Source: Candidatus Saccharimonadota bacterium (lineage in GTDB: Bacteria; Patescibacteriota; Saccharimonadia; Saccharimonadales; UBA4665). Taken from it: a DNA stretch of 33,735 nt. Shown one piece after another: positions 7,176 to 33,735 of the stretch. The position numbers were made by a program, and so were the translations under genes. The number at the start of each line of letters is the position of its first letter. The first letter of the stretch is position 1. The stretch covers positions 1 to 33,735 of the forward strand of contig DAHWID010000006.1 of the NCBI GenBank assembly GCA_027345405.1, written 5' to 3'. Under the pieces are notes generated by a model, which saw only the letters and a program-made list of their open reading frames with translations, had not been told where the DNA came from and ran no database searches.

Positions 7176-8345
7176 ATGAATGATCAGAAAACAATTCTAA
7201 CGGTCAATGTTGGTTCCTCAAGTATCAAGCTGGCTCTATTTAGTTTGAGTGACTTGCATAAAGAACTTGAGGCAGAAGTGACCAATATCGGTTCAGCTGA
7301 GGCCACTTTTATTTCCCCCAATCAGCATATTCCGGTTGTGGTAGAGGATCATGCTAAAGCTGCGGCATTATTAATGGAAAAACTAGACGATATGCTCGTA
7401 AATGCCAAGTTAGCTGCGATTGGACACCGGGTTGTGCACGGAGGTCCTATTTATTATCTGCCGACAGTTGTGAACGATGAAGTGGTTAGAAATTTAAAGT
7501 CATATTCGGCCTTTGACCCCGAACATCTCCCCGAAGAGCTTAATCTAATTGAGATTTTTAGCGTGCACTTTCCGAAAGTGCAACAAATAGCTTGTTTTGA
7601 TACGGCCTTTCATCATGACCTGCCCAATTATTCGAGAATTTTACCTCTCCCCCGTTATTTGGAACGAGACGGCTTGCGCCGCTATGGCTTTCATGGCCTA
7701 TCCTATGCCTATATTTTAGAAGATTTCAGAAGAAATGAGGGCGAAGCCGCAGTAAATGGAAAGCTCATTATTGCGCATTTAGGCAGCGGATCGAGCCTGG
7801 CAGCATTAAATGGCGGGATGCCTATCGATACGACTATGGCACTGACTCCCGCCTCGGGCATCACGATGAGTACTCGTTCCGGGGATATTGATCCAGGCAT
7901 CATAACTTACCTCGCTCATAATTATGGTTATGATATTCAGCAAATGAACCAGCTGTTTAATTTTAAGTCCGGATTACTCGGAATTTCTGAACAAACAGCA
8001 GACATGAAGAAGCTGCTCGAAGGCGCACAAGATAACGACTATGCCAGAGATGCAGTCGACATTTTTTGTTACAATGTAGCTAAGGTCATCGGTGGCTTCA
8101 CTGCTGCCCTAAACGGACTTAATTCTCTGGTATTTACTGGAGGAATCGGAGAAAATGCTCCAAAAATTCGCTCAAGAATCTGCGGGAGTCTAGGTTTTCT
8201 GGGAGTCGAGCTTGACCCCAACCGAAACGAGGCGGGAGAAAGACTTATATCATCCGACGGAGCACGAGTAGGGGTGCATGTAATCCATACCGATGAGTCG
8301 GTAACAATAGCTAGGGAAACCAAAAAATTATTGGGTGAACAATAA
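7176..8345 (+). CDS. ackA: Acetate kinase
   Basis: TVNVGSSSIKLALF, GHRVVHGG, AHLGSGSSLAALNGG, TGGIGENAPKIR motifs of acetate kinase. Confidence 0.95.
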   Translation: MNDQKTILTVNVGSSSIKLALFSLSDLHKELEAEVTNIGSAEATFISPNQHIPVVVEDHAKAAALLMEKLDDMLVNAKLAAIGHRVVHGGPIYYLPTVVNDEVVRNLKSYSAFDPEHLPEELNLIEIFSVHFPKVQQIACFDTAFHHDLPNYSRILPLPRYLERDGLRRYGFHGLSYAYILEDFRRNEGEAAVNGKLIIAHLGSGSSLAALNGGMPIDTTMALTPASGITMSTRSGDIDPGIITYLAHNYGYDIQQMNQLFNFKSGLLGISEQTADMKKLLEGAQDNDYARDAVDIFCYNVAKVIGGFTAALNGLNSLVFTGGIGENAPKIRSRICGSLGFLGVELDPNRNEAGERLISSDGARVGVHVIHTDESVTIARETKKLLGEQ

Positions 8346-8363
8346 CTTAATAAGGTGGGCAAT

Positions 8364-10733
8364 ATGGACAAAGACAACAAGCTTCCTCTTGATGAAGCAA
8401 CATTAAATAGAATCGATGCTTATTGGCGGGCTGCTAATTATCTTTCAGTGGGTCAAATTTATTTGTGCGATAATCCACTGCTTAAAGAACCTTTAAAACT
8501 CGAGCATGTCAAACGATTATTATTGGGTCACTGGGGCACCACACCAGGTCAGAACTTTATTTACGTTCATCTAAACCGCATCATAAAACAATATGACCTT
8601 AATATGATTTATGTTTCAGGGCCGGGTCACGGCGGTCCGGCACTAGTCAGCAACGTATATCTAGAAGGAACATTTAGCGAATATTACCAAGATGTAACTC
8701 AAGATGAGGCAGGGCTCAAGAAACTATTTAAGATGTTTTCGTTTCCAGGCGGTCTATCTAGCCATGTATCACCGCAAGTACCTGGCTCAATTCACGAGGG
8801 TGGTGAGCTGGGCTACAGTTTAAGCCATGCTTTTGGTGCTGTATTCGATAATCCTGATCTGATTGTAGCTTGCGTGGTGGGCGACGGGGAAGCCGAAACC
8901 GGTCCGCTTTCGACTTCATGGCACTCAAATAAGTTCTTGAATCCGCAAAAAGACGGTGCAGTATTGCCAATCCTGCATCTTAATGGCTATAAGATAAGTA
9001 ACCCTACGCTTTTAGCGCGGATTGAGCATGATGAATTGGAAAGCTTGTTTCGTGGTTACGGCTGGAGTCCTTATTTCGTAGAAGGTGATGATCCGCGCCC
9101 CATGCATCAGTTAATGGCAGCTGCGCTGGATGATGCCGCCTTGGAAATAAAACGGATTCAGCAGCAGGCCCGCAATAACAACGATCTGACCAGACCGCGC
9201 TGGCCGATGATCATATTGAACTCTCCAAAGGGGTGGACTGGACCCAAAAACCTTGACGGTAAACAGATTGAAGGAAATTTTCTATCACACCAAGTGCCGG
9301 TTATTGTGGACAAGGAGCATCCGGAAAATCTGAGCGTTCTTGAAGACTGGATGAAAAGCTACAAACCGGAAGAACTGTTTGATACGGACGGTAAATTGAT
9401 AGCAGAACTAGCATCATTACCACCGCAAGGCACTAGACGTATGGGGGCCAACCCGCATGCTAACGGAGGCAGTTTTTTAAGGGAGCTTGACTTACCAGAC
9501 TTCCGCAATTATGCCGTAGAGCTCGAATACCGAAGCGTCAGCAGTGAAGGTAATACACATGCTCTCGGCCCTTATTTGCGGGATGTAATTAAACAGAACA
9601 GTTCAATGCAAAACTTCAGAATTTTTGGGCCGGACGAGCTAGTCTCCAATCGCATAGATGCGGTTTTTGAAAGTACCAATAGACAATGGATGGCCAGGAC
9701 CCAGAAGAATGATGAATTTTTAGCACCGAGCGGCGCAGTCTTCGATTCAATGCTTAGCGAACACCAAATGGAAGGTTGGCTCGAAGGGTATATTTTGACA
9801 GGTCGACACGGTTTGATGCATAGCTATGAGGCTTTCATCAGGATTGTAGATTCGATGGTCAACCAGCACGCTAAATGGATCAAGATGTCGAATGAGTTAC
9901 CGTGGCGGCATCATATCGCGTCGCTAAATTATCTCTTGACATCTCACGTATGGAGACAAGACCATAATGGTTTTACGCACCAGGATCCGGGATTTATTGA
10001 TCACCTGCTCAATAAAAAAGCTTCGGTTGTACGTATTTACTTACCACCAGACGCCAACTGCCTACTCTCGACTATGGATCACTGTCTCAAGAGCCGCAAT
10101 TACATCAATTTAGTAGTTACGGGAAAGCACAACAGCCCACAGTGGCTTTCAATGGATGAAGCGGTGGATCATTGCACAAATGGCGTTGGTATTTGGGACT
10201 GGGCCAGTAACGACGGAGGTCAACCGGACGTGGTGATGGCGTGCGCCGGGGATGTTCCAACCCTAGAGGTCTTAGCGGCCGTATCGATACTTCGGGAGTA
10301 TTTGCCATCACTGAAAATACGCGTAGTTAATGTTGTTGATCTAATGAAACTTGAGCCGGACACTGAACATCCTCACGGATTAAGTGATATAGAATACGAT
10401 GAATTATTCACTAAAGATAAAGAGATAATTTTTGCCTTCCATGGCTATCCGTGGGTTATTCACCGGCTGACTTATCGACGCAGCAACCGAAACTTGCACG
10501 TTAGAGGGTATAAGGAGGAAGGAACAATTACCACAGCATTTGATATGACTGTACGCAATGATATGGACCGCTTTCATCTTGTGCTTGACGTCATTAATCG
10601 GCTGGGACTTACGGGAAGTGACGCCTTTAAGCTCAAAGAACTGATGGAAAACAGGTTGGTAGATCATGCAGAATATATCCGAATTAACGGTGTTGATATG
10701 CCCGAAGTACAAAACTTTAAGTGGAATTTCTAA
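8364..10733 (+). CDS. xfp: Xylulose-5-phosphate/fructose-6-phosphate phosphoketolase
   Basis: [79 protein letters not shown] are canonical phosphoketolase segments. Start at Met MDKDNK. Confidence 0.96.
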
Positions 10734-18224: not shown

Positions 18225-19382
18225 TTGACCCCTAAAAGACTAAGCCTAAATGCCGTTAAAGCACTGCTCATGCATCCACCGCAGTCGCCGGCCGTTACCA
18301 TTTATCTGCCGACACACAGACGCGCTTCTCCTCCTAAAATAAGCGCGGACGAAGTGCGACTAAAAAATCTTAAAAATGAAGCAGTTAAAATAATCCGAAC
18401 CCTTGATGAGGGTAAAAAATTTGCAGATGAATTCAATTCTCAACTTGATCGACTTATTGAAAGTCTGACTTTTTGGGAGCACCAGGACAAAGGTCTGCTT
18501 ATTTGCGCACGTCCCAATCTGTTTCAGTTGTTTTATTTGCCGTTAGATACTGAGGAATATTTAGCAGTAGATAAGATGTTTCATTTAGCACCAGTTTTAG
18601 GATTACTGGGTGACTTACAAAACTACTACGTGTTAGCTATTTCCCAGCATGAGCCGGCCCTGTTTAGCGGCGATTACTACCGCCTGCGCCGCTTAAATGT
18701 CGGCTTACCGCAATCGCTGCGACAGGCTTTGCAGATTGATGAGCCGGGAAGAATTAGCGAACAACAACACTCAGCCCGCGGCAATAACGGATATAACGGA
18801 CGCGGGGGCGACAAAGATATTGCGCAAGAAGAGCGATTAAGGTTCTGGCGCTTGATTGACCGTAAATGTTTAAAGTACATAAAGCGTGAGCGGCCGCTAT
18901 TATTAGCCGGTATTGAGAGCGAAGTCGCAGAGTATCTCGAGCAAACAAGCTACCCGTTTGTTATTAAAAAACACATCGAGGGCAGTTGGGGCAATTCTAA
19001 TTTGAACGAGCTTTTCCTGCAGGCTATAGCGATGATTAAACAAGAAGTAGTTGCTCCTAAGCATACTTCGGTAATTACTGAGTTCAAAAAGCTTAGAGGG
19101 AATATGTCGGAACTGACCGCGCACAACTTGATCGACATTATGACTGCCGCCGAGCAGGGACGTATAGCTAAGTTATTATTAGCCGGTATCCGTGTGACGA
19201 CCGATACGGTGCGTGAGGATCGCCGCCCCGCTGAAGTTATTAGTTTTCCTAACCAAGAAATGGCGGAAATTGTTAACAGAGTAGCCTTGGATGTTTGGAA
19301 TTCGAGGGGCAAAATAGTGCTACTTAAGAGCAATCAGATGCCGGTGAAAGGTGCAGTCATGCTTGCTGTGCTGCGCTACTAA
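18225..19382 (+). CDS. Bacterial archaeo-eukaryotic release factor (baeRF)-like protein
   Basis: SPAVTIYLPTHR N-terminus, FxxLP..., YYVLAISQHEPALFSGD, and KPLLLAGIESEVAEYLEQTSYP match the baeRF family architecture. TTG start with AAGGAG upstream. Confidence 0.7.
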   Translation: MTPKRLSLNAVKALLMHPPQSPAVTIYLPTHRRASPPKISADEVRLKNLKNEAVKIIRTLDEGKKFADEFNSQLDRLIESLTFWEHQDKGLLICARPNLFQLFYLPLDTEEYLAVDKMFHLAPVLGLLGDLQNYYVLAISQHEPALFSGDYYRLRRLNVGLPQSLRQALQIDEPGRISEQQHSARGNNGYNGRGGDKDIAQEERLRFWRLIDRKCLKYIKRERPLLLAGIESEVAEYLEQTSYPFVIKKHIEGSWGNSNLNELFLQAIAMIKQEVVAPKHTSVITEFKKLRGNMSELTAHNLIDIMTAAEQGRIAKLLLAGIRVTTDTVREDRRPAEVISFPNQEMAEIVNRVALDVWNSRGKIVLLKSNQMPVKGAVMLAVLRY

Positions 19383-19952: not shown

Positions 19953-20026
19953 GGTGCCGTGGCGGAGTGGTGACGCAGAGGTCTGCAAAACCTTTTATGC
20001 CAGTTCGATTCTGGTCGGCACCTCCA
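19953..20026 (+). tRNA. tRNA-Cys (GCA), CCA encoded
   Basis: Acceptor GGTGCCG/CGGCACC, anticodon loop CTGCAAA with GAGGT/ACCTT stem, T-arm CCAG-TTCGATT-CTGG, 3' TCCA. Confidence 0.93.
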
Positions 20027-20034
20027 AAATGTAA

Positions 20035-20122
20035 GCGCGGGTGTCGTAATTGGTAGCCGAGACAGACTTAAAATCTGTTGCCCTAATCGGGCGTGCGGGT
20101 TCGATTCCCGCCCCGCGCACCA
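20035..20122 (+). tRNA. tRNA-Leu (UAA), CCA encoded
   Basis: Acceptor GCGCGGG/CCCGCGC, anticodon loop CTTAAAA on ACAGA/TCTGT stem, long variable arm (class II), T-loop TTCGATT, 3' ACCA. Confidence 0.93.
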
Positions 20123-20215: not shown

Positions 20216-21055
20216 ATGCAGCACTCCCGGCGAAAAACTAACACGTTTGCCAAATTACTGAGCCTGCTGTTATTAACCATGGCATCAATTGGGCTGTTTG
20301 GCGCTTTAGTTACAGCTGATCCGTTAATCACCCAAGGTTTTGATACCACCCAGAATTTAAGTATCGGGTCCATCGTCAGTGCGGTGCCCGGCTCGCAAAA
20401 CAGCGTGGCAAGCGCCAATTTGACTAATGCCCGTTCGTTAATCGGCGTAGTGATCGCCAGCAATAATGCCGAAGTGTCACTGACAAGCGGGATTAACCAG
20501 GTACAAGTGGCAACTAGTGGGATTAACCAAGTGTTAGTTTCCAATTTAAACGGTGCCATCAAAACCGGTGACGAAATTACTGCTTCACCTATCAGCGGTG
20601 TCGGTATGTTGGCAACCGATAACGCCGAAGTTATTGGAACCGCCCAGGGTAATTTTCCAAATACCACTGCCCAAAAGCAGACTATTGCAACGAGTAGCGG
20701 TAAGCAGACCGTCGAAATCGGCGATGTGTCGGTACTAGTGAGTGTTGGATATTACACCAAACAACCGCCGAAAACCCTGATCCCGACTGCGATTCAAAAC
20801 CTGGCTAATGCGATTGCCGGTAAGACGGTCAAGACTTTGCCAATAATCTTAAGTGCGGTCATTTTCTTCCTGACCTTAATTGTCGTAGTGGCGATTGTTT
20901 ATTCAATGATCCATGGCAGCATTATTTCGGTTGGTCGCAATCCAATGGCTCAATCTGCCATTTATCGCAACGTTATGCAGATGTCGGCGCTCGTTGTAGC
21001 CATAGTTGCAGTTGCGCTGTTTGTTATTTTCATGATATTAACGAGGTTAAGCTAA
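20216..21055 (+). CDS. Exported protein with surface-fibre-like ectodomain and C-terminal F-type subunit c-like TM hairpin lacking the ion-binding carboxylate
   Basis: N-terminal signal/TM; ectodomain with GVVIASNNAEVSLTSG...GDEITASPISGVGMLATDNAEVIGTAQ; C-terminal hairpin ...VYSMIHGSIISVGRNPMAQSAIYRNVMQMSALVVAIVAVALFV with the c-subunit-like R-N-P loop; first gene of the F1-like cluster. Confidence 0.65.
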   Translation: MQHSRRKTNTFAKLLSLLLLTMASIGLFGALVTADPLITQGFDTTQNLSIGSIVSAVPGSQNSVASANLTNARSLIGVVIASNNAEVSLTSGINQVQVATSGINQVLVSNLNGAIKTGDEITASPISGVGMLATDNAEVIGTAQGNFPNTTAQKQTIATSSGKQTVEIGDVSVLVSVGYYTKQPPKTLIPTAIQNLANAIAGKTVKTLPIILSAVIFFLTLIVVVAIVYSMIHGSIISVGRNPMAQSAIYRNVMQMSALVVAIVAVALFVIFMILTRLS

Positions 21056-21068
21056 GGGGGCGGGCAAA

Positions 21069-21689
21069 ATGAACATCGCATTTGAAATTTTTCTCTACAT
21101 TGATGTATTTATCATTGGGGTGGTGGCCGCAGTGGCTTTTTATCATGCGCGGGCTCACTTTAAACCGCAGCCATCAGCTAAGCACCTGACAACGGCCGCC
21201 AAAGAAGTTAACCTGAGCAAAGACGTCCGCGATAAACTGCTACTTGAATCGCAGCAGAACTACCAGCATATTTTAGACCAAGCTGCAGTTGATCTCAGTC
21301 ATGAGCTAGCCGTGACGGCCGAAAAAATTAACACCACAATTAAAAATCTAGCAGCAGATATTATTACCAAAGAGCTTGAAGGTTTCGAAAAGTTATTTAA
21401 GGACTACCAGCAAACAGCGGCGAACGAACTGACAGCTGCTAGCACCCAAACCGAAACATATCAAAAGGAATTAAAAGCCAAACTGGATGCCCAGACTGAA
21501 CAAGAACGCCAGCGGTTAGTATCCCTGATTGACAATCAGCTAGCCGATGCGGTTTTATCTTTCTTAAATGAAGCCATGCAACACGAAGTCGATCTTGGTG
21601 CACAAGCTGACTATCTGATCAAATTACTTGATGAGCATAAGAGCGAGTTTAAAGAAGCGGTGGTGGGACATGAATCAGCTAAAGCTTGA
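21069..21689 (+). CDS. F-type ATPase subunit b-like peripheral stalk protein
   Basis: Single N-terminal TM followed by long Ala/Gln/Lys/Glu-rich coiled-coil; position immediately before a delta-like gene. Confidence 0.65.
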   Translation: MNIAFEIFLYIDVFIIGVVAAVAFYHARAHFKPQPSAKHLTTAAKEVNLSKDVRDKLLLESQQNYQHILDQAAVDLSHELAVTAEKINTTIKNLAADIITKELEGFEKLFKDYQQTAANELTAASTQTETYQKELKAKLDAQTEQERQRLVSLIDNQLADAVLSFLNEAMQHEVDLGAQADYLIKLLDEHKSEFKEAVVGHESAKA

Positions 21690-22164
21690 TGAATCAATTA
21701 GCTCAAGTGAGGATTTGCGGGCGGTGATTGAAGAAATCAAGTCATATAAGTCAGCCTTCCGTCAGGCACAGATTAAAGCTGCAGTCAGTCACCACTCAGG
21801 CCGCCAGCCATTGCCTGAACTGTCTGCCCCCGCCGCGGCAATGCTCAACCAGTTCCGTAGCGGTTCGAAACCAATCATCAATGAAACGATTGAACAGGCT
21901 TTAGTTGAACTCGAGCGGGTGTTTACCCAAGCCGTTAAAATCAGGGTGGTTTTGGCTGCCCCGGCACCCAATAGTCTAAAACGGCGTTTAACCGACTGGA
22001 TGCGCAACAATATAGCTAAGGATCTATTGATTGACTATCGTTACGATAGCGGGATTTTAGGCGGCATGGTAATAATTGCCGGAAGCCATATATATGATTG
22101 GTCCTTCCGCCGCGATTTGCAGGCGAAGAGTGATAAGTTGAAAGAGGTTATATCGCGTGTTTGA
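21670..22164 (+). CDS. F-type ATPase subunit delta-like (AtpH-like)
   Basis: C-terminal YRYDSGILGGMVIIAGSHIYDWSFRRDLQAKSDKLKEVI matches the delta C-terminal pattern (D..l.gG..i..gd.v.D.S.r..L..L). Start at 21670 instead of 21628. Confidence 0.75.
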   Translation: MNQLKLDESISSSEDLRAVIEEIKSYKSAFRQAQIKAAVSHHSGRQPLPELSAPAAAMLNQFRSGSKPIINETIEQALVELERVFTQAVKIRVVLAAPAPNSLKRRLTDWMRNNIAKDLLIDYRYDSGILGGMVIIAGSHIYDWSFRRDLQAKSDKLKEVISRV

Positions 22165-23648
22165 CAATCAGAAATTCACTAAATTAGTCGAGTCCAATAA
22201 CTTAACCGGTGAAGTCGTTTCAACTAATGGTTTTATAGTTGAAGTTAAGGGTTTAGAGGGCGTGCGGTTAGGAGCAATGGTACTTTTCAGCGACGGACAA
22301 CGCGGTCTGGTACGCGAGGCTTACGGCGATCGCGTGATTTTATTCAATATCGATTCGGAACATATTGCGCCTGGTACTTTAGCGGTGGTTGAGAACGATT
22401 TACTGCAAGTACCGGTCGGCAAAGAGTTAATCGGGCGGGTGGTTACGCCGATGGGTAATCCAATTGACGGCAAGGGACCGCTAAAAGCTAAAAAGCTTTC
22501 AGGTGTTTTTAACCCGGCGCCTGGGATTATGGCCCGTAGTATGCTTAATGAGCAACTGGCAAGTGGCGTACCGGCTGTAGATATGTTCTTTCCGATTGTG
22601 TTGGGACAGAGGATTGCCATTTTGGGCGACTCGAAGTCCGGTAAAAGTACCTTCTTAAGCCAGCTGGCAGCTAATCAGGCCGGTACTGACCGGATTGTAG
22701 TTTACGCCATGGTTGGTAAGCGTAAAGTCGACATTGAATCGCTCCTAAATGGCTTAAATACTAGCGGAGCGATACAACATACAATCGTTGTCATTGCCGA
22801 CATCTTTGATTCCCTAACTTTGTCTTACCTGGCACCTTATGCAGCCTGCGCGATGGCCGAGGAGCTATGGCACCAGGGTCATGACGTTGTTATTATTTAT
22901 GACGATTTATCCAGCCATGCTGAGGCCTACCGGCAATTGTCGCTTATCCAGGAAGTTGATCCTGGAAGGGATAGTTATCCTGGAGATATTTTTTATGCCC
23001 ATAGCTCGCTCCTTGAGCGTGCTGGAAAACTACTCGACGGCGACAAAACACTCACTGCCTTACCGGTGGTCGTAACTCCCAATAACGACATTACTGCCTA
23101 TCTTTCGACCTCCATTATGTCGATTACTGACGGGCAGATTATCTTTGATTTGAATGCCTTTAGAGCCGGTATCCGGCCGGCCATTAATGCTGGTTTAAGC
23201 GTTTCACGGGTTGGCGGCCAGGCGCAAACGGTGCGGCAGAAACGTTTAAGCGGGACCTTATTCCAAAAAGTTGCCGCCTACCACCAGGCAGAAGAGTTTG
23301 CACATTTTGGCTCTAACCTGTCGAAAGAAGCGGCGAGAGATCTCAAGCTTGGTCAGCAAATTTATGCCGTACTCCACCAAATGCCGGAGGAACTATACAG
23401 CTTGACTGAACAGCAGTTGGTACTGGAAACAGTGTTGCTGGGCAATGCGCAGGTAGAAATCGACATTGATGCTTTAAAGAAATCCGCTAAGGAAGCTGCA
23501 CCTAAAGTAAAAACTGAAGAAGATTTTGACAAGCTGGAGGCCGAATTACTGAAGCGGCACTCATATGCTATTGCCGGGGACGAACCTAAACCGCCAGCTG
23601 ATCAGGCTGATTCTAATCCGAGTGAAGAAAAACCAGAAGAGGCAAAAA

Positions 23649-23662
<14 letters not shown>
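22157..23662 (+). CDS. F1-like ATPase alpha subunit with acidic C-terminal extension
   Basis: Walker A GDSKSGKST, ALPVVVTPNNDITAYLSTSIMSITDGQIIFD, GIRPAINAGLSVSRVGGQAQT (arginine finger), VIIYDDLSSHAEAYRQLSL. GTG start. Confidence 0.9.
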
Positions 23663-26165
<2,503 letters not shown>

Positions 26166-26171
26166 ATAAAA

Positions 26172-27239
26172 CTACTGTTCAACCATATAGTTAATCTGAT
26201 AACCGCCCGGACTCAGGCCGCTGGCACTATTAATGGTGAAGCTACCAGTGCCCGTGCTGCCAACAAAAAAAGGCGCATAGCTGCCGAGAGGAGTAATTAC
26301 GACCACGGGTGGCGAAGAGTAGGGTGAATGGAAAACTACATATGCGGCTATGCCACCTTGGGGCGGTGCCCCAGCGCCTACTCCTAAAGCTATCGTTCCG
26401 GCGATATCGTTTCCCGATAAACTGACCGAACCATAGCTTCCGAGCGCCGCTCCCCGGCTGACAGAAGGAGATGCGCCAGCTGTTATAATGTGAGACTCAA
26501 CTTCAATTGAACCTGAAGCCACAATGTTACCGACAGCAATGTTGCTAGCGCTAAGTTCGCCACCTACCGAGAGGTTGCTCGATATAGCGGCGCTAGCATT
26601 GACGCTTAATAGGCCGGCAATTGTCACGGCATTTTGAAAAGTAGCGGTCCCACCAACCTCAAAATTACTCTTAACTCCCAGGGTTGAGGCAGTGGCGGCG
26701 CCGTTGATATTAATTGAATTAACACTTGAGTTGCCGGCTTGAAGCTGGCTGAAGTTAGCGTTGGTAGCGTTTAGGGTAGAGTTAAGATGCAGTTGGCCGC
26801 CGATACTAACATTTCCAGCAACCGTTAACTGTGAATTGAACTGAGCCGTCGGATCAACAATCAACTTTTCGTTAGTATTGCCGATTGAGGTGTCGTTAAC
26901 ACCGAGCTTCGATAACGTGGATGGACTAATCGAAACTCCCTTGGAATCAATCGCCTTCTGATTGGTGCTTTCCTGATTAAGCAAATAACCCAAAACGGCG
27001 GCGTTTATCCCTAAAATTATGATCACGACTCCCAGCCCGATAAACATAGCCTTATGGCTCGGACGAAAAGTTAGCAGCCGCTTTTTAACTTCGGATTCAC
27101 TAATCGGTTTACGGGTGATACGCTCGTCTTTAGCTACGACCTTAACTTTCTCACCGTCTTCTTCTCGCGGCTTGAGTGCTTCACCGTCAGTTGAGATGTC
27201 CTGCGGCTTGTTTTGGTCCCTTATGGGGTTGTTCGCCAC
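26172..27239 (-). CDS. Membrane-anchored fibre-like surface protein with tail-fibre-like C-terminal domain
   Basis: Cytoplasmic charged N-terminus, TM (MFIGLGVVIIILGINAAVLGYLL), repetitive VGG/NV-type beta repeats, C-terminal FHSPYSSPPVVVITPLGSYAPFFVGSTGTGSFTINS...YMVEQ like phage tail-fibre/receptor-binding C-termini. Confidence 0.65.
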   Translation of the reverse strand: MANNPIRDQNKPQDISTDGEALKPREEDGEKVKVVAKDERITRKPISESEVKKRLLTFRPSHKAMFIGLGVVIIILGINAAVLGYLLNQESTNQKAIDSKGVSISPSTLSKLGVNDTSIGNTNEKLIVDPTAQFNSQLTVAGNVSIGGQLHLNSTLNATNANFSQLQAGNSSVNSININGAATASTLGVKSNFEVGGTATFQNAVTIAGLLSVNASAAISSNLSVGGELSASNIAVGNIVASGSIEVESHIITAGASPSVSRGAALGSYGSVSLSGNDIAGTIALGVGAGAPPQGGIAAYVVFHSPYSSPPVVVITPLGSYAPFFVGSTGTGSFTINSASGLSPGGYQINYMVEQ

Positions 27240-27291: not shown

Positions 27292-28032
27292 ATGACCGTT
27301 TTGGGAAGGCGACAGCAGCTAGCAATTTATTTTGGGTTTACTTTAGCCTGGGCGTTAATGACATTTGGCTTTGTATCAAGTTATGCCAGCTCATCGCCGC
27401 ATTATCAGTTAATCGAAACTTCACTCGGTGGAACCGGATTGGTTAATAGTGCATCGACTAATTATCAAGCTCAGCAATCTGGTGCTGTCATTGGCGTTGG
27501 CACTTCAACCGGTACTAGTTATCAAGTTGAGGCTGGACACCTAACGACCGGAGCTCCAGCCTTATCTTTCGGTATAATTGGCGCCAGTCCCAGCTTCGGC
27601 ACCTTTTCTCCGACCGCTACGGCTACGGCGACCTCGCAGTTTGAGGTAATTGACTATACTAGCTATGGCTATGCGGTGTTGATTTATGGCAATCCTCCAA
27701 GTAACGGTGAGGGAACAACAATTACACCATTGTCGTCCAACGCTTCGCCGCAGACCGGAGTTGATCAGTTTGGTATGAACCTTGTTGCCAATAGTGTACC
27801 AACCGCCTTTGGGGCAAATCCTAACTACGGTCAATTCGGCTTCGGTACGGTTGAGCCTAACTATGATACAGCCAATAGTTTTCGCTTTGATAGCGGTGAT
27901 GAGATCGCCTATTCGAGTAAAAGTTCCGGTGAAACGGTTTATACCATTAGCTATATTGTTAACGTGGCTAATCTGACACCTGGAGGGGTTTATGTTTCAA
28001 CCCAAAACCTGCTTTGTGTAGCAACTTACTAA
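27292..28032 (+). CDS. Secreted surface protein (paralogue family A)
   Basis: N-terminal signal/TM; shares DQFGMNLVAN and YTISYIVNVANLTPGGVYVSTQNLLC C-terminal pattern with the next two genes. Confidence 0.65.
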   Translation: MTVLGRRQQLAIYFGFTLAWALMTFGFVSSYASSSPHYQLIETSLGGTGLVNSASTNYQAQQSGAVIGVGTSTGTSYQVEAGHLTTGAPALSFGIIGASPSFGTFSPTATATATSQFEVIDYTSYGYAVLIYGNPPSNGEGTTITPLSSNASPQTGVDQFGMNLVANSVPTAFGANPNYGQFGFGTVEPNYDTANSFRFDSGDEIAYSSKSSGETVYTISYIVNVANLTPGGVYVSTQNLLCVATY

Positions 28033-28121: not shown

Positions 28122-29300
28122 ATGGTTATAAAGCTGAAGAGATTTGTATACCTGGCTGTTGCCGGGATGATGTTTGCCGCACTAGGAGCAGTTATACTAC
28201 CAAGCCGCTTGGTTGAAGCGGCGGAAATAACCAGCAGGAGTTTGACGCTTGAAACCGACTCTACCGCTACCACACCGGTAGGCGGTTCAACACCGAGCGG
28301 TACAGTCGATCATCTATTTGCGTTTACGTTACCAACCAGTACCGCCATCCAATCAATTGAGTTTCAATACTGCGCCAGCCTTACCTCAACCGATGTCTGC
28401 TCATCTAGCTTGCCGGCTGGGCTGACGACTACTTCAGCAACCCTCGGTACGACATCCTCGGCCTTAAGCGCATTTACGCTCAATAATTCTACTAACGGAA
28501 CACTGTATATAACCTCCTCTAGTGCTTATACACCAGCGGCCAATACGGCTTTAAGTGTTCAATTTGTCGGAATTGTCAACCCCAGTGCCACTAACACCAC
28601 CTTTTACGTGACAATCTCGACTTGGCAGCAAGCCACACCTGGGACGACTTTAGTTGATGAAGGTAATGTTGCCGCCTCAACCGCCAACCCGATCGATCTA
28701 AACGGAGTCATGCCTGAATCGCTGGTTTTTTGTACCGGGGCCACGGTTAGTGAAACTAGCGGTGTACCCAGTTGTTCCACCGCGACATCTGGTACTGTTA
28801 ATTTTCAAACGGTGTTCTCGCCAAACTACACATCAGTTGCTACCTCGCAAATGGCGGCTTCTACCAATGCTTTAAATGGTTATCAAATTACCGTACTCGG
28901 TCCAACTATGACGAGTGGAAGTAGTGCGATTACAGCAATTGGCGCAACGGCTGCGGCACCGGTTAACGGCCAAGACCAGTTTGGCATAAATCTAGTTGCC
29001 AACACCACCGCAACTAATCCGAATTGTGGAACATCACTTACTTGTGGCACAGCTATTACTCCGGCTTCCGACGGCACTAGTTACTTTGCGCTTCCGGCAA
29101 CGAATTATGCTACGGCCGATAAATATGCGTTTGCGGCTAATACCACAACGGTTGTAGCTACCAGTGGCTACCCAAGCGGCACGACGGTCGGAACAGACGC
29201 TCAGATATACACTGCCACATATGTCGTTAACGTCCAGGGTTTGACACCAGCCGGTACCTATACCACGACTCTTACCTATATCTGTACCCCGACGTTCTAA
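28122..29300 (+). CDS. Secreted surface protein (paralogue family A), tandem copy 1
   Basis: Signal peptide; RSLTLETDSTATTPVGGS...; paired Cys; C-terminus GLTPAGTYTTTLTYICTPTF. Confidence 0.75.
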   Translation: MVIKLKRFVYLAVAGMMFAALGAVILPSRLVEAAEITSRSLTLETDSTATTPVGGSTPSGTVDHLFAFTLPTSTAIQSIEFQYCASLTSTDVCSSSLPAGLTTTSATLGTTSSALSAFTLNNSTNGTLYITSSSAYTPAANTALSVQFVGIVNPSATNTTFYVTISTWQQATPGTTLVDEGNVAASTANPIDLNGVMPESLVFCTGATVSETSGVPSCSTATSGTVNFQTVFSPNYTSVATSQMAASTNALNGYQITVLGPTMTSGSSAITAIGATAAAPVNGQDQFGINLVANTTATNPNCGTSLTCGTAITPASDGTSYFALPATNYATADKYAFAANTTTVVATSGYPSGTTVGTDAQIYTATYVVNVQGLTPAGTYTTTLTYICTPTF

Positions 29301-29353: not shown

Positions 29354-30502
29354 ATGCAACCGAGGCGGATCCTTGGGAGGCTGTACCTGGCGGTAGTATT
29401 AGGATTTATAGCGGCAACGATCAGCCCACTTTTTATGCAACCGACAGCACTAGCGGCCCAGATAACAAACAGAAGCTTAACCCTTCAAACAGACTCCTCA
29501 GCGACAACACCAGTAGGAGGATCTGATCCTGGTGGAACAGTTGATCATTTGTTTCAATTCACCGTACCATCAGCTACAGCGATACAGTCAATCGAGTTTA
29601 CATATTGCTCCAGCTTGACCACGTCCGATGTGTGTTCAACTAGCGTACCAACTGGCCTTACAACTACCGCTGCTACGCTTGGAACTGATTCAAGCGCGTT
29701 AAGCGGTTTTACGCTTAATAATTCAACTAACGGCACTCCATATTTGACGTCCTCTAGCGCTTATACCCCGGCCGCAGATACGGCCTTAAGCGTACAGTTA
29801 GTCGGCGTGGTCAACCCGACGGCCGCCAATACAACTTTTTTTGTAACGATATCGACTTGGGAACAAGCTACACCCGGCACGACATTGGTTGATGAAGGTA
29901 ACGTTGCCGCGTCTACCGCTAACCCGATCGTATTAACCGGTGTAATGCCCGAATCGCTAATTTTTTGTACCGGTGCAACAATTAGCGAAACTAGCGGTAT
30001 TCCAAATTGTTCAACTGCTACGTCTGGGAACATTGCTTTTCCGATGCTATTTTCACCATCAGCCACAGCCTATACAACCTCACAAATGGCGGCTTCCACC
30101 AATGGTACATACGGCTATGTGATTACGATTACCGGTACGCCGCCGACCAACGGCTCTAACCAGGTTAGTCCGATTACTACGGCTACCACGTCTCAAATTG
30201 GTACGTCGCAATTCGGGCTGAATCTAGAAGTTAACACCACTCCGGCAGTGGGTACAGCAGTTACGCCAGCCTCGGATGGAGTTAACTATTTCGCCTATCC
30301 GGAGACCGGGTATAACACGGCTAATGATTTTCAATTTAACTCCGGTAATACGGTAGCCAACAGCGGATACTCAACCGGTACGCCGACGAAGCCTACTGAT
30401 GCGCAGATTTATACGGTATCATATATAGTTAACGTACCGGGTAATTTGCCTCCAGGGACGTACACATCGACGTTGACATATATCTGCACGCCGACCTTTT
30501 AA
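29354..30502 (+). CDS. Secreted surface protein (paralogue family A), tandem copy 2
   Basis: Highly similar at protein level to the 28122 gene: ATPGTTLVDEGNVAASTANPI, C-terminus LPPGTYTSTLTYICTPTF; signal peptide. Confidence 0.75.
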   Translation: MQPRRILGRLYLAVVLGFIAATISPLFMQPTALAAQITNRSLTLQTDSSATTPVGGSDPGGTVDHLFQFTVPSATAIQSIEFTYCSSLTTSDVCSTSVPTGLTTTAATLGTDSSALSGFTLNNSTNGTPYLTSSSAYTPAADTALSVQLVGVVNPTAANTTFFVTISTWEQATPGTTLVDEGNVAASTANPIVLTGVMPESLIFCTGATISETSGIPNCSTATSGNIAFPMLFSPSATAYTTSQMAASTNGTYGYVITITGTPPTNGSNQVSPITTATTSQIGTSQFGLNLEVNTTPAVGTAVTPASDGVNYFAYPETGYNTANDFQFNSGNTVANSGYSTGTPTKPTDAQIYTVSYIVNVPGNLPPGTYTSTLTYICTPTF

Positions 30503-30513
30503 ATACTTTGCCA

Positions 30514-31524
30514 ATGAATAAAATTAGAAATTTATTTGTTTTAGGTGTCAGCCTACTGTTAGTGCAGGTAATACTGCCGCAAGTGGCGTTTCGTGCTACG
30601 AACACGCCGATTTCACCCACCAATATCGGTCAGGCGCTTGAGATTGACCCACCCCTAATCGAGTTGAGCGGAAACCCCGGACAGACAATCACCGCCCAAA
30701 TCGAAATTAAAAACATTTCCAAAGGTTCCGTAATCGTCAGCAATCAGATCAATGATTTTACGGCTAAAGGTGAAACCGGAATACCGGACATCTTGATTAA
30801 CTCCAAAGTCAAAGACCCTTATTCCATTTTGGGGTATATTGCCCCGCTATCTGACTTTGCGCTTAAGTCTCAACAAACCAAGACCTTAAATATTAATATA
30901 AACATTCCAAGAGACGCCTCTCCGGGTGGACATTACGGAGTAATTCGTTTTACCGGGACCCCGGCCACTCTAACTGGCAGAAGCGGCGTGTCGTTATCCG
31001 CCAGCCTTGGCGCTTTGGTTTTACTGACTGTTAACGGGCACATCGTTGAAAAATTGCAAACCCATCAGTTTAGCGTCAGTTCGAATGGTGTAGGGAGCAG
31101 CGGTTTTTTCCAAAACGATCCGTTTGTGTTTACGGAAGTCTTTCAAAACGTCGGCAACGAACACGTTATACCTACAGGCATGCTGACTGTTAAAGATATG
31201 TTCGGTCATACGGTTTTGCAAATGTATATCAACAATACCCAGGGCAATGTTTTGCCAGGAACGATGCGCAAGTTTACTCAGGAGATTAGTAAGGTCAACG
31301 TTGGCAACAAACGCTTCTTTGGCCGTTATACTGCCACTTTTAGCGTTAAATACGGTTCTCCCGTGCAAACATTAAACGGCCGTTTAACATTTTTGGTCAT
31401 CCCCGTCGAGCTGATTATTATCTGGCTGGTTGTTTTGATCGCTGGCTTCTTCTTGATAAGATACGGGCTTAAGCGGTATAATCAACACATACTAGACAAA
31501 GCACAAAAATCCAAGAAAAAATAA
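30514..31524 (+). CDS. DUF916-like surface protein with C-terminal TM anchor
   Basis: Signal peptide; IDPPLIELSGNPGQTITAQIEIKNISKGSVIV; DASPGGHYGVIRFTG; C-terminal TM IIIWLVVLIAGFFLI plus basic tail. ATG 30514 preferred over TTG 30508. Confidence 0.65.
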   Translation: MNKIRNLFVLGVSLLLVQVILPQVAFRATNTPISPTNIGQALEIDPPLIELSGNPGQTITAQIEIKNISKGSVIVSNQINDFTAKGETGIPDILINSKVKDPYSILGYIAPLSDFALKSQQTKTLNININIPRDASPGGHYGVIRFTGTPATLTGRSGVSLSASLGALVLLTVNGHIVEKLQTHQFSVSSNGVGSSGFFQNDPFVFTEVFQNVGNEHVIPTGMLTVKDMFGHTVLQMYINNTQGNVLPGTMRKFTQEISKVNVGNKRFFGRYTATFSVKYGSPVQTLNGRLTFLVIPVELIIIWLVVLIAGFFLIRYGLKRYNQHILDKAQKSKKK

Positions 31525-31554: not shown

Positions 31555-32544
31555 ATGGCGGCATTTGTTAGCCTAAAAGGCCGCGGACATAGCGGAAGAC
31601 TGCGGCCGCATGAACATACCTCATACGGACCTTTAATGGCGCTGCTATTGATCGTTGGAGCGCTACTGGCCGGTTTTACGGTATCAGCTTATGCTGGAGC
31701 TAGTCCTTTGCCCCAGGCATCATCAGTCAGTTTAACCGGCGTTATGCCGGAAAATCCGCCAACGACCGCTGCAAGTATTACTTATCCGACAAACCAACAG
31801 GTTTTTCAAACTACTCCGGTTACGGTAAGCGGCACTTGCCCCAGTGGTACGATAGTTGAGATCTTCAAAAATAATATTTTTGCCGGATCGACACCGTGCA
31901 ATAACAACTCTACCTTTAGCGTGCAAATTGATTTGCTATATGGAAGCAACACACTCACGGCCGTCGATTATGATGCCTTAAACCAAGCCGGACCAAGTTC
32001 AAAAGCGGTAAATGTAACCTATAACGTGCAGGTCCCGCCGGAATCCTCACTTTTAAACGTGAACTTCACCGCTACTCAGCTAATCCTGCAAACCAGCGCG
32101 GTTTATAGGGGAACATTTCCCAATCAGCAACTCAATGTCCCAATTGACATTTTAGGTGGAGTAGCTCCGTTTGCCGTGAACGTTAACTGGGGTGATAACT
32201 CTAACGAAGTGTTGCCGGCTAACATTAACACTACTGTTAACGCTTCTCATGTCTACACCAAAGCGGGAACTTATAAGATATCGATCCAGGCGAGCGATAG
32301 CGAGCAACACGTGGCTTTTCTAGACGTTGCCGCGATTGTTAATGGCCAACCTTCAATTGTTGGCGCTAATAGCACCTCCTCAACTAGCAAAACCAATAAG
32401 CTTCTAGTGCTGTGGCCTCTGTATGTCAGTGCGGTGACTATGGTTGTAAGCTTTTGGTTAGGTGAAAGACGCGAGAAGCACGTTCTTTCTGACGCGCTAA
32501 AACCTGCGCCATCCCTTGGCCCGCCCATCCACCAGTCACATTAG
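31555..32544 (+). CDS. Membrane-anchored surface protein with PKD-like domain
   Basis: N-terminal TM; VNWGDNSNEVLPANINTTVNASHVYTKAGTYKISIQASDSEQH matches PKD (WGDG...H.Y...G.Y.V.l...D); C-terminal TM. Confidence 0.7.
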   Translation: MAAFVSLKGRGHSGRLRPHEHTSYGPLMALLLIVGALLAGFTVSAYAGASPLPQASSVSLTGVMPENPPTTAASITYPTNQQVFQTTPVTVSGTCPSGTIVEIFKNNIFAGSTPCNNNSTFSVQIDLLYGSNTLTAVDYDALNQAGPSSKAVNVTYNVQVPPESSLLNVNFTATQLILQTSAVYRGTFPNQQLNVPIDILGGVAPFAVNVNWGDNSNEVLPANINTTVNASHVYTKAGTYKISIQASDSEQHVAFLDVAAIVNGQPSIVGANSTSSTSKTNKLLVLWPLYVSAVTMVVSFWLGERREKHVLSDALKPAPSLGPPIHQSH

Positions 32545-32665: not shown

Positions 32666-33735
32666 ATGAGTTTTGGAAGGGCGAAAATACAAACGCTGGC
32701 ACTAAAAGGAGCCTTTTTAGGGGTATTGCTACTAGTGTTATTTGTTTTTGTCGGCCAGAGCCAAGCTGCCACCGGGATTAACCAGACAATTGAGTTTCAA
32801 GGGCGCCTGCTTAACGCTCAGGGTGCACTCGTTCCGGACGGTTATTACAATATAGAGTTTAAGATTTATGAAAACGGCGACGGACAAAGTGCTGGTGATA
32901 CGACCGGCTCTCCCGCTGGCACTTTACTGTGGACAGAGGACTACCTTAATTACAACAACCAAGGGGTTAAGGTGGTCAACGGTTTCTTTTCAGTAGATCT
33001 AGGATCGATTAACCCGTTTGGTACGAGTATCGATTGGAATCAGAGCGTACTGTGGTTGTCAATGAACGTCGCCGGCACCTCCACGACCTGTAGCACTTTT
33101 AGCACTTGTAGTCCTGACGGTGAAATGCTGCCGATGCAGCCACTGACTGCCAGCCCATATGCGCTTAACTCGGGACAGCTGGGAGGACTATCCAGTACGC
33201 AGTTTGTTCAATTAGGGCAGGGGGTGCAAACTGATGCTTCCACAAACCCAAGTATCTTTATAAACAAAACCGGCAGCGGCAATTTAGTTGAGCTGCAGGC
33301 TTCCGGTACCGATGCATTTGTTATCTCTAATTCCGGCGATGTCAGCTTCGGCAACAATAGCACTACTCACGCTATATCTGTAAATACGGCAGCTGCTTCA
33401 ACTGCCGGTGTTGCTCTAAGTATCACTGCCGGCGCGGCCGGCAGCGGAACGACAGCGTTAGCTGGCGGTAATTTAACCTTACAAGGAGGAGCCGGAGGCG
33501 GTACTGACGGTAATGGCGGCAGCGTGAACATTGACGCCGGGGCGCCTAACGGGACTGGTTCAGGCGGCAATATTGACATTGGGAGCCAATATGCCGCAAA
33601 CGTAATAATCGGAAACAACACACTTGCATCCTTAAGTTTTAATTCCCAGGGTATTGGCGAAACCATCAATGGAAGCTCAACCGCACCAAGCGCTCTATTC
33701 CAGACCACCACTAATTCAGGTAGCGCGCTAGAAGT
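32666..33735 (+). CDS. Large secreted fibre-like surface protein (3' truncated by window)
   Basis: ATG at 32666, open to the window end: MSFGRAKIQTLALKGAFLGVLLLVLFVFVGQSQAATGINQTIEFQGRLLNAQGALVPDGYYNIEFKIYENG..., then Gly/Ser/Asn-rich beta repeats. Confidence 0.7.
   Translation, partial: MSFGRAKIQTLALKGAFLGVLLLVLFVFVGQSQAATGINQTIEFQGRLLNAQGALVPDGYYNIEFKIYENGDGQSAGDTTGSPAGTLLWTEDYLNYNNQGVKVVNGFFSVDLGSINPFGTSIDWNQSVLWLSMNVAGTSTTCSTFSTCSPDGEMLPMQPLTASPYALNSGQLGGLSSTQFVQLGQGVQTDASTNPSIFINKTGSGNLVELQASGTDAFVISNSGDVSFGNNSTTHAISVNTAAASTAGVALSITAGAAGSGTTALAGGNLTLQGGAGGGTDGNGGSVNIDAGAPNGTGSGGNIDIGSQYAANVIIGNNTLASLSFNSQGIGETINGSSTAPSALFQTTTNSGSALE

Follow-up and report, generated by a model that had tools for sequence, protein, structure and literature searches.

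The protein encoded at 20216-21055 (+) of the window, which is the whole stretch of 33,735 nucleotides analysed here, is probably (roughly 0.6) the rotor-side membrane subunit of a second F1-type ATPase in Saccharibacteria and other Patescibacteria, which would not move ions and would instead move extracellular domains. This protein, designated X, has 279 aa and combines a signal segment, an extracytoplasmic domain, and a two-helix hairpin resembling subunit c of ATP synthase. Its gene is the first of a tight, almost gapless same-strand operon, X-b-delta-alpha-gamma-beta-epsilon, whose product is referred to below as X-F1. The features of X and of the operon are as follows:

20216..21055 (+): X, with signal segment, extracytoplasmic beta domain, and c-like two-helix hairpin (from the sequence, the model, and the operon place of c)
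20216..20314 (+): signal peptide or N-terminal TM segment, residues 1-33 (RRK, a hydrophobic stretch, then VTA/DP; helix 10-27 in the model)
20324..20755 (+): beta domain on the extracytoplasmic side (residues 37-180), a module that giant CPR fibres and phage appendage proteins also contain
20834..20929 (+): first helix of the hairpin (residues 207-238), poor in Gly, its core without an acidic residue
20933..20944 (+): cytoplasmic loop GRNP, residues 240-243, corresponding to the gamma/epsilon-docking loop of subunit c (from conservation and from c HMM and PDB-profile alignments)
20942..21046 (+): hairpin helix 2, residues 243-277, with column 261 (20996-20998, Val) at the position of the c ion-binding Glu/Asp
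21069..21689 (+): b-like peripheral stalk, 206 aa, one TM segment and a long coil (from its place between X and delta; conserved in X loci)
21670..22164 (+): delta/OSCP-like subunit (PF00213, 1.3e-8; ATG at 21670, the listed ORF starting at 21628)
22157..23662 (+): alpha-like subunit (PF00006, 1.3e-62; tree)
23649..24512 (+): gamma (PF00231, 1.9e-22; probable start codon ATG at 23649, with the ORF listed from 23565)
24502..25911 (+): beta-like subunit, with Walker A GGAGVGKT and GERIREG intact
25908..26165 (+): epsilon, 85 aa, the beta-sandwich only, with no C-terminal helices (PF02823, 4.7e-9)

The reading frame of X is real, as relatives are encoded by 76 of the 94 genomes of the source family, and the Gly/Asn/Val/Thr-rich peptide quoted by the sequence-only reading corresponds to residues 77-144. 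The end given in that reading, 20840, truncates the frame at the first hairpin helix; the hairpin extends to 21046. The AlphaFold2 model of X, built from 45 sequences (mean pLDDT 87), contains a helix at 10-27, a beta domain at 39-180, a further helix at 191-201, and two long helices at 207-238 and 243-277. The ending VTA/DP and similar endings suggest cleavage of a signal peptide, as judged from the residues themselves. Considering this cleavage together with the basic N-terminus (net charge +4 in residues 1-14), the positive mean charge of the hairpin loop, and the negative mean charge of the ectodomain, we infer that cleaved X would have the topology of subunit c, with both termini outside and the loop inside. 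An antisense ORF of 154 aa covers the same stretch as X. Scans of the DNA for promoters and terminators performed no better than on shuffled sequences. Directly upstream of the X operon, tRNA-Cys and tRNA-Leu genes are found at 19953-20122; other genes in the window include one for an archaeo-eukaryotic release-factor-like protein (baeRF) at 18225-19382 (PF18845, 4.8e-20), as well as acetate kinase-like and phosphoketolase-like genes lying side by side at 7176-10733, judged from sequence.

By its genes and catalytic residues, the operon is predicted to encode an F1 (alpha3beta3gamma with an intact beta site). X-linked beta subunits keep both Walker A and the catalytic GER(I/T/S)REG, and from such residues the X-linked machine looks ATPase-competent. 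The alpha-like subunit scores 399.7 bits with the atpA model, which is under the cut-off of 484, and the b-like protein matches b/delta models weakly (E 0.008-0.3). No subunit a was found within the window. Two hallmarks of an ion-translocating F1Fo, a subunit a with the complex and an ion-binding Glu/Asp in helix 2, are missing. The earlier description of the hairpin as c-like is supported, but the absent ion-binding acid and the presence of a second F1 operon lacking a went unnoticed.

The ectodomain of X is a genuine module related to domains of giant fibres and phage appendages. Its profile matches giant fibre proteins of 1,489-3,772 aa, mostly with iE values from 1e-18 to 4e-28. The module is usually sub-terminal in these proteins (62-94% of their length) rather than terminal, as had been supposed, and weaker copies also occur at 20-54%. 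The fibres bearing it also have Peptidase_S74, Peptidase_G2, or H-lectin matches near their end, and one of them overlaps PF11962. A Foldseek comparison of the ectodomain with viral models retrieved phage proteins, among them a preneck appendage, with a best match at 3e-9 and 26% identity. These significant profile and fold matches place the ectodomain among the modules of CPR giant fibres and phage appendages, in agreement with the previous suggestion of a fibre- or phage-appendage-like domain that is predicted to lie outside the cell. Compared with phage preneck appendage and Peptidase_G2-type fibre domains, it is similar in fold and sequence family; the difference is that in X the module is fused to a predicted membrane rotor subunit. 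A Pfam search with window X gave no useful match, and PHROG and phage records gave none. The phage decoration fold was rejected as its identity: the PDB match was a phage capsid outer-shell chain at E 2e-4, but TM-scores were low. A proposed link to the fibre gene at 32666 did not hold either, as none of the four full-length relatives of that gene checked (1,682-1,732 aa) matches the X ectodomain, and this neighbouring fibre is ruled out as a carrier of the module.

The best reading of the hairpin is that X descends from subunit c, based on its loop, its topology, and its place in the operon. X has the two-helix hairpin and the operon place of c together with the conserved polar loop R-(N/Q)-P; among 91 X proteins the loop motif is RNP in 90/91 and RQP in 1/91 (R 91/91, P 91/91). 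It is this subunit-c loop that bears out the claim of a domain fused to a c-like hairpin. When a canonical-c profile was searched against 5,324 ORFs, true c ranked first and X proteins occupied the next 23 places (best 7e-7), with window X itself at E 0.36. Alignment of X and c profiles by hhalign gave P 7e-6 for all X and P 2.4e-8 for the distant set, and the X profile had only two matches among PDB sequences at E<=10, both of them c subunits (E 0.25 and 0.39). The best PF00137 score of X hairpins was 22.2 bits, below the cut-off of 24, and window X was not matched. In computational controls, shuffling of the segments abolished the c score (0/910 over 15 bits), and it stayed when a 20-residue loop was kept and the helices were shuffled (183/910 over 15 bits). 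The sequence similarity to c is thus carried by the loop of about 20 residues. In F1Fo, it is the c loop that docks on gamma and epsilon.

Outside this loop, the features that define a working c subunit are missing. Column 261, the site of the c carboxylate, is acidic in 0/91 X proteins, and columns 256-271 are likewise never acidic. An acid in the core of either hairpin helix is present in 1/91 X, with none at the c site, compared with an ion-site acid in 30/30 canonical c subunits from the same genomes. Besides falling short of the PF00137 cut-off, X does not have the Gly-rich packing of helix 1, which contains 1.4 Gly per 25 residues versus 7.3 in canonical c, and the c-ring packing pattern is absent. 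Because this packing has been lost, assembly of X into a ring, and the copy number of such a ring, are presumptive. A VirB2/TrbC-like pilin hairpin was also tried as an identity and rejected, as X matches it only at E 0.04-0.19.

In the proposed rotor mechanism, b2-delta would hold the F1 head as a stator, ATP hydrolysis would turn gamma-epsilon, and several X hairpins, docked by their GRNP loops on gamma/epsilon, would form a membrane rotor and move along. The motion of this rotor, either a turn or a crank, would carry mechanical work to the extracellular domains and to neighbouring lectin-tipped fibres. Considering the surface neighbours of X and the analogy with Mycoplasma, the most likely use would be attachment to, or movement on, host cells. 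A more specific version, in which a c-ring without ion sites and capped with extracellular domains serves as an old rotary motor that torques adhesive fibres and has been kept where the proton enzyme was lost, is held tentatively, at slightly under even odds. The motion may be full rotation of a ring, a crank, or a switch. Several points count against the rotor, namely the loss of the helix 1 Gly packing, the restriction of the c sequence signal to the loop, the scarcity of the Saccharimonadia surface block in distant lineages, the X copies without F1 neighbours, and a third F1-like cluster in the source genome (L217, contig C33 3654-8625), which has the order epsilon-beta-gamma-alpha-delta-b, belongs to the X-linked clade, and has no adjoining X but a cysteine-desulfurase-like gene in its place. 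Moreover, a domain of about 150 aa on each protomer may fit a tight ring poorly, and a stator without subunit a may have no assigned bearing surface.

Some of these observations would also suit a different use of the same complex, as a switch or anchor in which the nucleotide state of F1 alters a few X and regulates adhesion, with neither continuous rotation nor a closed ring. Such a device would be compatible with the lost ring packing motif of helix 1, with a c sequence signal restricted to the docking loop, and with the existence of X paralogs and stand-alone copies. In one family (f85, L065-L068), each F1-like operon has an X gene at both of its ends, and three of the four loci have surface genes between one X and b. 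Stand-alone copies (L033, L038, and others), some of them in tandem, have no F1 genes in the fetched stretch and retain the conserved hairpin loop. However, gamma, epsilon, b, and delta, which would be needless for a mere switch, are all kept in most lineages: the order X-b-delta-alpha-gamma-beta-epsilon is found in nearly all F1-holding X loci, both in Saccharimonadia and in distant Patescibacteria families, and in one locus (L094) no b or delta was seen. A switch or anchor is therefore regarded as unlikely, and the rotor-side reading of X is preferred.

The extracellular side of this reading draws on the genes adjoining the X operon, which are listed below:

26172..27239 (-): membrane-anchored fibre with an H-lectin/tail-fibre-like head, convergent with epsilon (38/43 window-type loci, 0/20 random stretches)
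27292..28032 (+): secreted surface protein belonging to the conserved block (37/43 window-type loci)
28122..29300 (+): secreted surface protein, in a tandem pair with the 29354 gene (37/43 loci)
29354..30502 (+): secreted surface protein, in a tandem pair with the 28122 gene (37/43 loci)
30508..31524 (+): WxL-interacting-protein-like secreted protein with a C-terminal TM segment (PF06030, E 2e-4, below cut-off; 20/43 loci)
31555..32544 (+): secreted protein, PKD-like, adjoining the block (PF18911 below cut-off at E 0.0016; 1/43 loci, not widely conserved)
32666..33735 (+): fibre gene of about 1,700 aa, start only, ended by the contig edge (full-length relatives of 1,682-1,732 aa)

In window-type loci, the upstream genes vary and the downstream surface block is conserved. 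At least one of the families represented by the 26172, 28122, 29354, and 30508 genes was found in 38/43 window-type loci, 19/26 other Saccharimonadia loci, and 4/17 distant loci, versus 0/20 stretches taken at random from these genomes. In distant loci, a long ORF (at least 1,000 aa) was more often nearby, in 10/17 compared with 3/20 random stretches. The random control consisted of one stretch per genome (20 stretches), and the relatedness of loci was uncorrected. Because of this small control and the related loci, the association of the surface block with the X operon is considered strong for Saccharimonadia and suggestive beyond them. The 26172 protein is predicted to be a lectin-tipped fibre, as its model (pLDDT 69 overall, with the head above about 87) consists of a TM helix, a beta shaft, and a head, with weak fold matches (E about 0.02) to snail H-type lectins and pyocin tail-fibre ends. 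The WxL-interacting-protein-like protein (30508-31524; PF06030 below cut-off) is here encoded by a Saccharibacterium.

FliI/SctN relatives assist type III export. The adjoining surface-protein genes, and the homology of alpha/beta to export ATPases, might point to an export machine, whose F1-like head would energise secretion of the surface proteins encoded nearby, or their assembly, via an X-lined pore. On the other hand, these surface proteins bear their own N-terminal signal segments, and no conserved multi-TM pore protein is present in the window-type operon. Moreover, alpha and beta have their best scores with the atpA/atpD models, far above FliI; as the FliI/SctN models are not the best ones and gamma, delta, and epsilon are present, membership in the type III export ATPases is not supported, and the retention of gamma, epsilon, b, and delta in general also argues against export. 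An export function is thus improbable.

The distribution of X across the phylum bears on whether X-F1 could move ions. Matches to X or to its ectodomain were found in 144/384 sampled genomes of the phylum, and the full-length X architecture in at least 60/384 when counted from the matches listed; named relatives are nearly all from Candidatus Saccharibacteria, with one from Paceibacterota. In the source genome, canonical a and c are located on another contig. Among 49 genomes with X, canonical a was detected in 39 and canonical c in 39, none of them inside X operons, and PF00119 (subunit a) gave no match in the X operons of these 49 genomes. The other 10/49 (G391, G320, G344, G370, G228, G240, G335, G138, G158, and G201) have X-F1 and neither a nor c at E<=1, save one weak match on the X hairpin in G201. 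Several of these are single-contig assemblies with an estimated completeness of 94-99%. Their only F-type alpha/beta are the X-linked ones, other PF00006 matches being Rho-like in score. The maintenance of X-F1 in 10 genomes without a or c implies that X-F1 serves a purpose other than ion transport. An F1Fo that still translocates ions, with an atypical c and a divergent or shared a, which the c-like loop of X and the canonical a elsewhere in most X genomes might still suggest, is very improbable in view of these 10 genomes without any a, the near absence of acids from the hairpin core, and the fact that no conserved a-like neighbour was seen.

Phylogenetic analysis, based on quick trees with long branches, placed the X-linked betas in one clade (39 rows; SH-aLRT 100, stem 0.74) and the X-linked alphas in one clade (SH-aLRT 100) apart from canonical F1Fo. 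A recent duplication within Saccharimonadia was tried and rejected, as a topology with the canonical and X-linked betas of Saccharimonadia as one clade had a p-AU of 4e-5. Within the phylum, the X-F1 machine seems to be ancient and not to depend on the proton enzyme. A study of ATP synthase evolution reports the loss of canonical complexes from 10/33 CPR genomes and is not known to describe an X-F1-like paralog; in Southlakia, the F-type ATP synthase has been reported to be dispensable. The long branches might suggest that X-F1 comes from a duplicated ATP synthase operon in decay, but this can be dismissed, because the catalytic residues are intact, the loop is invariant, the gene order is kept across many families, and X-F1 is retained in genomes lacking the canonical enzyme.

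If X is indeed the rotor-side subunit of such a machine, an F1 motor would have survived the loss of proton translocation, and a rotary ATPase would have been kept for a non-ion task across many Patescibacteria families. To our knowledge, Mycoplasma offers the only other examples of F1 motors kept for work other than ion transport. The c-subunit loop of X provides a concrete molecular hypothesis for the base of such motors, which in the Mycoplasma X0 is still undefined. Moreover, genomes annotated with an incomplete ATP synthase may instead carry X-F1. Attachment of epibionts is otherwise attributed to type IV pili, and X-F1 would represent a testable energy source for their surface activity.

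No earlier account of an X-F1 motor in Patescibacteria was found in the open-access literature searched. Canonical F1Fo resembles X-F1 in its b-delta-alpha-gamma-beta-epsilon order, catalytic residues, and c-like loop, whereas X-F1 has no a, no ion-binding acid, an extracellular domain on the c-like subunit, and a separate clade. Among F/N-type c subunits, ProAD noted 20 'non-catalytic' candidates lacking the ion-binding acid; since both a and c were required for its core set, clusters with X would fall outside it (PMC11738941).

Two systems of Mycoplasma are closer in principle. The Type 3 F1-like X0 ATPase is required for the surface MIB-MIP system (PMC3369863, PMC12994834), and substitution of the Walker A Lys in its beta-like subunit abolished function (PMC12994834). 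Similar to X-F1, it occurs in a reduced genome as an F1-like cluster additional to a true F1Fo, has no recognised a or c, and is linked to surface proteins. Its proteins MSC_0620 and MMCAP2_0577 combine a signal peptide and an extracellular region with a pair of TM helices at the C-terminus, the same anatomy as predicted for X by the model, and no relation of the Mycoplasma two-TM proteins to c has been reported. In contrast, the X0 includes a 12-TM protein and lacks a b homologue, while X-F1 keeps b and delta, and X carries the c loop; neither a 12-TM protein nor the cytosolic Protein 2 occurs among the X cluster genes.

The Type 2 G1-ATPase of Mycoplasma mobile has been proposed to drive gliding, with MMOB1650, which has two TM segments, put forward as a candidate gamma partner (PMC8406192, PMC11864180). 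As in the reading of X-F1 given here, an F1-like motor is proposed to transmit force across the membrane to surface proteins that bind sugars. However, the Type 2 system has a twin motor, an extended beta N-terminus, and GliD, and X-F1 is not a member of it by sequence; the gliding motility is that of M. mobile. Against the NCBIfam models of MSC_0618/0619 and MMOB1660/1670, the X-linked alpha/beta of the window scored 252.8/520, 384.2/570, 300.9/600, and 342.1/850 bits (score/cut-off). With these scores far under the cut-offs, no 12-TM protein, and b and delta kept, X-F1 is a family distinct from the Mycoplasma types, and F1-like motors that work with no ion-translocating Fo are, as a principle, already known from Mycoplasma.
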